DNA from: Blattabacterium cuenoti
GTDB lineage: Bacteria > Bacteroidota > Bacteroidia > Flavobacteriales > Blattabacteriaceae
Reading direction: 5' to 3'
Assembly (NCBI RefSeq): GCF_014251955.1
Contig: NZ_CP059203.1
Coordinates: 131,671 to 180,661, forward strand
Length of the DNA stretch: 48,991 nucleotides
Below the pieces are notes generated by a model. The model was not told the DNA's origin. It worked only from the letters and a program-made list of their open reading frames with translations, and did no database searches. The position numbers and the translations under genes were made by a program. How positions within the stretch are numbered: the first letter of the stretch is position 1; each line of letters starts with the position of its first letter. Positions 8,610 through 14,565 of this stretch are shown here, piece after piece.

Positions 8610-9007
8610 TTATTTCAATTCTGTTTCTGTCATTTTTTCTTCTAGTATTTCATAAAATATTTTTTTTATAGATTGATTTATATCTTGAAATTTTGGTAAA
8701 AAAATTCCTATATAAACAAAAAGAATCTGATAAATTTTATTGATATGGATATATTCCATTTTCCTTTCTAAAATAGATTTGTTTAAAAAAAATGAAGCTC
8801 TTAATAAACGTTTTATTCTATTTCTATGAACAGCTTTTTTAAACTTTTTTTTTTAACTAAAGTTCCAATTAAATTTATTTTTTTTATTCCTTTAAAATTC
8901 GTTTTTTTTTCATCAGATAAAAGCACAAAAGCGGAAATAGGAAATTCTGAAAAATACTGACCGTATTTAATTATTGTTGTATAATACACATCTTTTTTAT
9001 TTTTCAT
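8610..9007 (-). CDS. rnpA: Ribonuclease P protein component, frame broken at a poly-A run
   Basis: RnpA is the protein subunit of RNase P, which matures tRNA 5' ends. The frame from the ATG at 9007 gives ...[12 protein letters not shown] and then runs off to a stop at 8813 after 64 residues. At 8845-8854 the coding strand has ten A. One extra A restores [17 protein letters not shown], the family RNR signature, and the frame then stays open to a TAA at 8610-8612, giving about 132 residues, a normal length. The sequence after the break is well conserved, so this is either a homopolymer sequencing error, a gene rescued by polymerase slippage, or a very recent loss. The start lies 11 bases inside the end of fbp. 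Confidence 0.88.
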
Positions 9008-12325: not shown

Positions 12326-12768
12326 ATGAAAATATTTGATATGATGAATTATAATAATCATATTTGTCAATATGATAGAGATTATATGAACATAGCCATG
12401 GTATGGTCTCAATTTTCTTATTGTAAAAAAAAAAAGTAGGGGCTATTATAGTTAAAAATCATCGTATTATATCTGATGGATATAACGGAACTCCAAGTGG
12501 ATTTGATAATATATGTGAAGATAAAAACGGAGAAACAAAATGGTATGTTTTACATGCAGAAGCAAATGCCATATTAAAAATGGCCTCCTCTTCAAAATCT
12601 TGCAAAGGAGCTTCTTTATACATAACACATGCTCCCTGTAAAGAATGTAGTAAATTAATTCATCAATCTAAAATTAAAAGAGTTGTATATTTATATACAA
12701 CAACAAAAAATGATGGATTGAATTTTTTGAAAAAATCTAAAATAGTTATAGAACAACTCATTTTTTAA
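12326..12768 (+). CDS. Deoxycytidylate (dCMP) deaminase, frame broken at a poly-A run
   Basis: This gene encodes a ComEB-type dCMP deaminase, which makes dUMP, the substrate of ThyA. From the ATG at 12326 the frame reads QYDRDYMNIAMVWSQFSYCKKKK and then hits TAG. The coding strand has eleven A at 12425-12435. One more A restores VGAIIVKNHRIISDGYNGTPSG and continues without a stop to 12768. The zinc residues are intact: HAEANAI and PCKEC. The restored product is about 147 residues, a normal length. An in-frame ATG at 12580 would give only the last 62 residues, without HAE. A clean terminator follows the stop codon, so the gene looks alive apart from this base. Confidence 0.87.
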
Positions 12769-12899: not shown

Positions 12900-12981
12900 A
12901 CCCAGGTGGCGAAATAGGTATACGCGCTGAACTCAAAATTCAGTGATTTTTATCATGCGGGTTCGAATCCCGCTCTGGGTA
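12900..12981 (+). tRNA. tRNA-Leu (anticodon CAA)
   Basis: The sequence folds as a class II tRNA. The acceptor stem is ACCCAGG (12900-12906) with TCTGGGT (12974-12980). The D arm is GCG...CGC. The anticodon stem is CTGAA/TTCAG with loop CTCAAAA, giving anticodon CAA, which reads UUG. A long variable arm (TGA-TTTT-TATCA region) marks it as Leu or Ser, and the T arm is GCGGG-TTCGAAT-CCCGC. Position 12981 is the discriminator base A, as leucine tRNAs require. CCA is not encoded and must be added. Confidence 0.95.
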
Positions 12982-13079
12982 TTTTTTTTATGAAAAAAAT
13001 ATAATTAAAATAAAAAATATCTTTGGAAAAGCGGCAAAATCTCTTATGGATTAGAGAAAATTTTCTCTCCATCTATTTA

Positions 13080-13360
13080 TTATAATAATAATCCATCTAT
13101 AGAAGAAACATTCTCGTTTTTTGGATCCACTTTTAAATACGTAGTTTCTCCATTTAAGATCATATCTTTTTTAGATAGACATCCTTTTATTATTTGAATT
13201 TTCTTCTTTCTTTCATTTTTTTCATCAATGAATCCATTTTTTATTCCAATATTTGCCTTTTCAATTTCATATGGATTTCCTAAACTAAACGGATTTTATC
13301 TCCTTTTGTAGAGACATACATTTTTGCATAAGATTCTCTATCTATTTTTTTCATTTTCAT
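13080..13360 (-). pseudogene. ureC: Urease alpha subunit remnant (ureC), internally deleted
   Basis: Reading the minus strand from the ATG at 13360 gives MKMKKIDRESYAKMYVSTKG followed by DKIRL, the start of urease alpha. It then meets a stop next to a repeated GTTTA. In the following frame, LGNPYEIEKANIGIKNGFI resembles the segment near residue 130 of UreC (family form: KADIGIKDGRI). It continues without a gap into KKDMILN and LKVDPKNENV, which match the last ~80 residues (family form: KKDM-FND-PxIxVDPETYxV). A stop lies at 13080-13082. The nickel site and whole catalytic barrel, some 350 or more residues, are gone. I infer a large in-gene deletion plus frameshifts. The fragment cannot be an active urease. 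Confidence 0.85.
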
Positions 13361-13365
13361 CTCGC

Positions 13366-13615
13366 ATTTTTTTTTTTTTCCTTAAAATCCATAAATTTAA
13401 TGTAACTTCTTTTGTTTCTCCTGGATCAAAACGAACAGACCTTCCTGAAGGAAATATCTAAGTTTAGAGTTCCATTTCTATAAAAATGAAGTGAAGTGCA
13501 AGATTGGTTTCATGAAAAACAGAATTGGAAACCACTCTTTCTATAAGAAGATCTACCAGGGGATAAAACAATATCATATCCTATCTATAATAATATCGTA
13601 TTCTCCTGGAATCAT
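13366..13615 (-). pseudogene. ureB: Urease beta subunit remnant (ureB)
   Basis: On the minus strand from 13615 the sequence begins MIPGEYDIII, matching the conserved start of the urease beta domain (MIPGE). Pieces in shifting frames follow: IVLSPGRSS, then SLHFYRNGTLNLDI (family form SHFHFxExNxxLxFD), then FPSGRSVRFDPGETKEVTLN (family form IPxGTxVRFEPGExKxVxL). At least two frameshifts and several stops interrupt it. It lies just upstream of the ureC remnant in the usual beta-alpha order. I could not find any gamma-subunit (ureA) sequence between it and the amidase gene at 13678, nor accessory genes ureD, E, F or G in the window. Confidence 0.82.
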
Positions 13616-13677
13616 AGAATTTTTATTATTTTTTTTTGTTTTTTCTATTCTTTCAAAGAATTATATTTATTATATAA

Positions 13678-14565
13678 TTGAACTATAAATTGAATCTCAA
13701 TTGTAAATTCATATACATTTTTATAATAATTCTGTTTTCATCTTGTAATAAAGATTTTTACAAAAAAAAAAATTACACTTATTATGATGCAGTAGCTTAT
13801 CCTTTTATTATTGATAATAGACATTCTTCAAAAAATTTCAATAAAAGAATTCGTTTTTTAGTTTTACATTATACTGCAGAAAATTTTGAATCCTCTATAA
13901 AGACTTTAACAGAAAAAGAAAAAAAAGTGAGTTCTCATTATCTAATTCCAGAGACTCCTATAAATGGGGAAAGAAAAATATTTTTATTAGTTAGTGAAAA
14001 TTTAAGTGCTTGGCATGCTGGAAAGAGTTATTGGCAAAATAGAACAAATTTAAATGATACTTCTATTGGGATTGAAATGGTCTATTTAGGATATAGATAT
14101 GAAAATGGGCTTCATAAACGACGAATATGGATTCCGTTTACAAATTATCAAATTAATATTTTGATTCATCTAGCGAATGATATTATTCATAGATATGATA
14201 TTCAACCAACAGCTATTGTTGGACATTCTGATATTTCTCCTGGAAGAAAAATGGATCCTGGTCCATTATTTCCTTGGAATAAGTTAGCGAATCATGGAAT
14301 TGGAGCTTGGTTTGATAAAGAAAAAGTTGAAAAAATAAAAAAAAGAATTCATAATAAGAACATTAATATTTTATCTATGCAAAAAAAACTAAAAAAATAT
14401 GGATATAAAATTAAAGAAACTGGAAAACTTGATATTCAAACAAAAAAAGTTTTATCTGCTTTTCAAATACATTTTAGACCAAATAATTATTCTGGAGAAC
14501 CAGACGAAGAAACAATCGCTATATTAAATAATTTAATAGAAAAATACTTTTTTTTAAAAAAATAA
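13678..14565 (+). CDS. N-acetylmuramoyl-L-alanine amidase, probable lipoprotein with peptidoglycan-binding domain
   Basis: This amidase_2 enzyme of the AmiD type cuts the amide bond between muramic acid and L-alanine, probably for wall recycling. Zinc ligands are visible in VLHYTAE, VGHSDISPGRKMDPGP and the AWHAG stretch. A C-terminal peptidoglycan-binding domain (about residues 235-280) carries MQKKLKKYGYKIKETGKLD. The N-terminus has a hydrophobic segment ending in LFSSC (Cys23), a likely lipobox, so it should sit on a membrane facing the periplasm. There is no ATG before the conserved domain: the frame opens with TTG at 13678, directly after a stop. Its upstream side is the decayed urease locus, so the natural start may have been disturbed. 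Confidence 0.88.
   Translation: MNYKLNLNCKFIYIFIIILFSSCNKDFYKKKNYTYYDAVAYPFIIDNRHSSKNFNKRIRFLVLHYTAENFESSIKTLTEKEKKVSSHYLIPETPINGERKIFLLVSENLSAWHAGKSYWQNRTNLNDTSIGIEMVYLGYRYENGLHKRRIWIPFTNYQINILIHLANDIIHRYDIQPTAIVGHSDISPGRKMDPGPLFPWNKLANHGIGAWFDKEKVEKIKKRIHNKNINILSMQKKLKKYGYKIKETGKLDIQTKKVLSAFQIHFRPNNYSGEPDEETIAILNNLIEKYFFLKK

Follow-up and report, generated by a model that had tools for sequence, protein, structure and literature searches.

Urease is described as a key part of the bargain between cockroaches and Blattabacterium, and two papers, in the portions available to us, call it universal in the genus and present in every strain (PMC9603385, PMC8878154), seven Blattabacterium genomes being compared in one of these statements. 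In published models, again as far as the available portions go, it is urea hydrolysis by the symbiont that makes the nitrogen of uric acid usable again (PMC3287516, PMC8878154). For strain Bge, the accessible text reports ureAB and ureC, the absence of all accessory genes and urease activity in extracts, and the cycle is described there as a complete urea cycle (PMC2768785). Nutritional genes have been lost in a lineage-specific way, according to the parts consulted, in the Blattabacterium of Mastotermes and Cryptocercus, which are without argininosuccinate lyase and other steps and in which urease is described as kept (PMC8878154, PMC9603385). A break in nitrogen recycling confined to one lineage is likewise found in Blochmannia vafer, a urease-encoding ant symbiont without glutamine synthetase, which according to the text available has kept urease and lost ammonia assimilation (PMC3017870, PMC4389277).

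In this study, a dead urease was confirmed in one Blattabacterium cuenoti genome, alone among the 49 Blattabacterium genomes searched. The strain shares with Bge, so far as that report was accessible, the same two genes, the same fusion and the same lack of ureD, ureF and ureG, but while urease activity was measured in Bge, neither gene is whole in this strain and the stretch for the active site has been deleted. In contrast to the strains of Mastotermes and Cryptocercus, urease is lost and argH is kept, and unlike in B. vafer, it is urease that has gone, while ammonia assimilation through glutamate dehydrogenase persists. Since urease has been stated to be universal, this strain is an exception; no urease loss is reported for Blattabacterium in the portions of the literature found, and the 67-strain tables of Kinjo et al. 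2021 may list it.

The window, that is, the whole stretch of 48,991 nucleotides analysed, covers positions 131671-180661 of a single-contig genome of 639,415 bp. Between tRNA-Leu(CAA) and an amidase gene, decayed remnants of ureAB (the fused gamma/beta subunit gene) and then of ureC lie on the minus strand at about 13005-13633. The first-pass annotation had read this locus as a urease reduced to fragments of ureB and ureC on the minus strand, which proved right, and had placed it at 13080-13615, the correct locus for a remnant that is slightly longer. The features are as follows.

12900..12981, plus strand: tRNA-Leu (CAA), from ARAGORN and Rfam; left neighbour of ureC, the same in loci L001-L004
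13005..13232, minus strand: ureC 3' piece, about codons 500-568, from tblastn and alignment
13233..13259, minus strand: ureC middle piece, about codons 85-96, from BLASTN (E=4e-10) and alignment
13258..13354, minus strand: ureC 5' piece, codons 1 to about 34, from alignment with 7 intact relatives and tblastn
13372..13633, minus strand: ureAB fusion remnant, from BLASTN to the sister genome G037, alignment with 8 intact relatives and tblastn
13678..14565, plus strand: N-acetylmuramoyl-L-alanine amidase gene, intact, from Pfam; right neighbour of the remnant

The remnant sits beside tRNA-Leu(CAA) and upstream of the aspartokinase/homoserine dehydrogenase gene, as Blattabacterium urease does. 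Compared by BLASTN with the intact locus of the sister genome, a single 4.4-kb subject, the minus strand gave three collinear matches: tRNA plus ureC 3' end (E=2e-83), ureB plus ureC 5' end (E=9e-56), and the middle piece of ureC (E=4e-10). When the sister proteins were searched against this strain's own genome by tblastn, UreC was recovered at residues 497-568 (E=2.6e-22, 3 stops) and 1-24 (E=2.3e-5), and UreAB at residues 147-191 (E=7.2e-9, 2 stops). Segment boundaries were taken from BLAST and segment alignments, a global alignment having given scattered chance matches in mid-ureC; 18 loci of relatives were fetched, of which 8 were aligned for ureB and 7 for ureC, L078 being in the ureB alignment only.

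The gamma part of ureAB is missing altogether, and the beta part, which begins MIPGEY (13615), is damaged by a 7-base insertion, deletions of about 33 and about 23 bases, single-base shifts and stops; the earlier reading of a broken beta subunit from MIPGEY thus stands for the beta part, the gene concerned being a ureAB fusion without its gamma part. The ureC remnant starts at 13354 and its frame hits a stop after 24 residues, the gene remaining recognisable to about codon 34, further than the approximately 20 residues first proposed. The following piece, first assigned to the vicinity of residue 130, in fact corresponds to residues 85-96 or so in the numbering of the sister protein, and the 3' piece, which carries a 27-base insertion, stops and further small indels, holds about 65-70 C-terminal residues rather than about 80. 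Overall, about 450 of the 568 codons of ureC have been deleted (approximately codons 35-84 and 97-499), and each joint coincides with a short direct repeat in the intact gene (TGAAA; AATGGA), the pattern that would be expected from deletion between short repeats. The motifs that hold the nickel centre lie at residues 137-364 of the sister UreC, a protein alignable nearly full length to solved ureases, and they fall inside the part deleted here, so that the catalytic centre is gone, as had been claimed. Neither a whole ureAB fusion frame (gamma plus beta) nor a whole ureC frame with nickel-centre motifs is present in the remnant. A product from the remnant was rejected as well, as no ORF of at least 80 aa occurs within 12985-13677 and stops interrupt all three minus-strand frames.

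As in a pseudogene, the frames are disrupted here and the orthologues are whole in near relatives. Comparison of the same locus, which had been recommended at first pass, showed ureAB and ureC at full length in 18/18 loci examined closely, the sister included, the intact arrangement being a fused ureAB frame of 204-225 codons and, after it, a ureC frame of 566-581 codons. Across the genus, ureC gave one match in each of the 48 other genomes, always in an open frame of 568-599 aa free of stops, which agrees with the earlier statement that urease is normally kept in Blattabacterium. In this strain's own genome (639,415 bp, single contig) the Urease_alpha family gave no match, and tblastn with UreC and UreAB at E up to 1 returned the remnants only, so that no second copy was found. 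A urease at work on a plasmid or other replicon missing from the assembly is a very improbable escape from this result: the assembly is one contig with a completeness rated at 92.91%, and some relatives have two contigs, but the one ureC match of each of the 48 relatives is on a contig of about chromosome size that also bears the threonine locus, so a replacement copy must first have moved, and no such copy was seen. The accessory genes, also proposed as a check, are uninformative about the loss in this strain, since ureD, ureF and ureG are absent from 49/49 Blattabacterium genomes; their absence was therefore rejected as a sign of loss. Taken together, we are highly confident that ureAB and ureC survive only as inactive remnants lacking the catalytic centre, with no further copy in the assembly searched, and that the symbiont is likely unable to split urea to ammonia.

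Decay of the whole region was rejected, because this genome has 36 of the window's 39 sister ORFs (at least 90 aa) in intact form; the other three are ureAB, ureC and a deaminase-like frame that is interrupted at a run of A. That urease damage is an artefact of assembly or sequencing has only the slightest probability: two other window frames are broken at runs of A, the usual site of base-calling errors, yet homopolymer errors cannot yield several separate large deletions together with substitutions spread evenly over codon positions, and the sound flanking genes (36 of 39) speak against it. As for these two frames, the gene at 12326-12765, presumably deaminase-like in function, changes frame at a run of 11 A and is whole in the sister, and its break may reflect decay or a base-calling error, or the frame may be rescued by slippage. 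At 8628-8998, a minus-strand frame is broken near a run of A, and a 126-aa frame of genome G026 matches it in two reading frames; by its motif, the broken frame resembles rnpA.

The nearest relative is the sister genome G037, with 92% identity over 3.4 kb at the threonine locus. A FastTree phylogeny of this locus, built from loci of 30/49 genomes plus two named loci, joined this genome to G037 (support 0.967) and that pair to G026 (1.000). Urease is intact in both G037 and G026, thus the loss is private to this lineage and followed the split from the sister. Private substitutions, polarised with G026 as the one outgroup over about 490 aligned sites, numbered 14/20/16 at codon positions 1/2/3 of the remnant (163/164/162 sites), against 3/1/14 in the sister urease in the same comparison and 358/170/817 in 35 intact window genes of this lineage (13,494 sites per codon position). 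The pattern was unchanged when columns near gaps (within 3, 6 or 10 bases) were left out, with Fisher p from 9e-5 (no columns dropped) to 0.0025 for remnant versus intact genes and from 0.0018 to 0.0069 for remnant versus sister. The codon-position bias in substitutions has thus been lost, as in a pseudogene, from which we infer that selection on urease ceased early on the private branch. In addition, the remnant rate at positions 1+2 (0.10) is not below the lineage rate at four-fold sites (0.07), which suggests that the gene has probably been drifting freely for most or all of that branch. The loss had been called recent in the first-pass annotation; it is recent relative to the genus, since it came after the split from the sister, and not within the private branch, where it is not very fresh.

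Gene loss in this genome extends beyond urease. In a comparison of a further 180 kb with 180 kb of the sister, 137/150 sister ORFs were intact, and 7 of the 13 non-intact ORFs make up a complete trp operon in the sister (trpA, B, F, C, D, G and E, names being those of the best NCBIfam matches, some below curated cut-offs). Within the window plus the 180 kb, the trp operon is missing here between conserved flanks, a short trpE scrap alone being left at G000:C1 ~231212-231352 (L115:10212-10352). Among the other six ORFs, three seem to differ by the choice of start codon, two sit at the end of a compared stretch and one is a long frame much shorter here. The reverse comparison found frames here that the sister lacks, which indicates that both lineages are shedding genes.

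The mechanism of the loss is ordinary, namely pseudogene decay in a shrinking symbiont genome; the loss itself is surprising because urease is said to anchor the symbiosis. It is quite possible, at somewhat under even odds in our judgement, that the loss is real and of little nutritional weight, the genes having gone by drift in a symbiont whose nitrogen needs were already covered by host amino acids and ammonia, without any change in the host. The private gene losses in both this genome and its sister fit such drift, as do the retained glutamate dehydrogenase and the massive parallel gene loss reported for the genus in the available portion of one paper (PMC8878154). However, ureC is kept in 48/48 other genomes, including the 511-kb genome G015, so its loss is no common outcome of drift, and it is kept even where the PF00491 (arginase/agmatinase-family) enzyme is lacking (G015, G023 and G029) or where no whole argH is recognisable (14 genomes). 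It is also possible, at odds well short of even, that this strain is a natural urease knockout in which the ancient nitrogen-recycling bargain has been rewritten: urea nitrogen would be recycled by gut microbes or the host, the supply of tryptophan would have been dropped too, and a symbiont enzyme would still make urea that the symbiont has no means to use. The earlier proposal of a changed nutritional contract is a reasonable inference from gene content, and the missing trp operon points the same way; any consequences for the host are likewise predictions.

In our main reading, the course of events would start with the end of selection for urea hydrolysis early on the private branch, after which deletions between short direct repeats and small indels would have shortened the frames. 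Urea from the PF00491 enzyme, or made by the host from uric acid, would then leave unused, and glutamate dehydrogenase would need ammonia from elsewhere, the simplest sources being ammonia or amino acids of the host, or gut microbes. The PF00491 enzyme is kept here with no stops and was found in 46/49 genomes, thus a joint loss of arginase and urease was rejected, the reverse case being that of the three genomes named above, which have ureC without this enzyme. Glutamate dehydrogenase is kept with no stops, as in 49/49 genomes, and its private substitutions (9/5/32) indicate ordinary codon constraint. For the PF00491 enzyme, private substitutions at positions 1/2/3 were 13/2/11 here and 10/5/23 in the sister, and as position 1 has changed as much as position 3, constraint may be somewhat relaxed here too; the prediction of continued urea production would then be weaker. 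With a urea-releasing enzyme and glutamate dehydrogenase kept and urease gone, the symbiont is predicted to have no further use for urea.

The PF00491 enzyme, usually called arginase in Blattabacterium, passed the NCBIfam agmatinase model (215 bits, cut-off 174) and stayed below the cut-off of the arginase model (111 bits, cut-off 228), and it comes after an arginine-decarboxylase-like gene, itself below curated cut-offs (L107:15-2193; G000:C1 ~595514-597692). The agmatinase score and this neighbour hint that the enzyme serves a putrescine route instead of a urea cycle, and as arginase or as agmatinase, the enzyme would release urea. The argH gene was over the cut-off in 35/49 genomes, this one included; of the remainder, G012 has it in two pieces and 13 genomes gave only a weak match to a related lyase, all 14 keeping ureC.

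A urease-less strain with an intact sister offers a natural comparison for the value of urea recycling by the symbiont, in which uric-acid storage, ammonia excretion and gut ureolysis could be compared between the hosts of both strains. Such a strain would also mean that the symbiosis can, in some hosts, do without urease.

On the right of the remnant, the amidase gene (13678-14565) has a TTG start, an N-terminus that by eye is lipoprotein-like, and matches to Pfam Amidase_2 (2.4e-26) and PG_binding_1 (5.5e-9). It was found in 1/49 Blattabacterium genomes, namely the urease-less one. Insertion of this gene as the cause of the break in ureAB was considered improbable, since remains of its 3' end occupy the corresponding site in the sister (L066) and in G018 (L068), two clear cases among the 18 loci compared; these remains make it look like an ancestral gene with a single survivor. 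Among the best 120 of 7357 matches, its best named ones were AspAUS03 (Flavobacteriales), Rickettsiella and Coxiella-type symbionts, at 57-62% identity.
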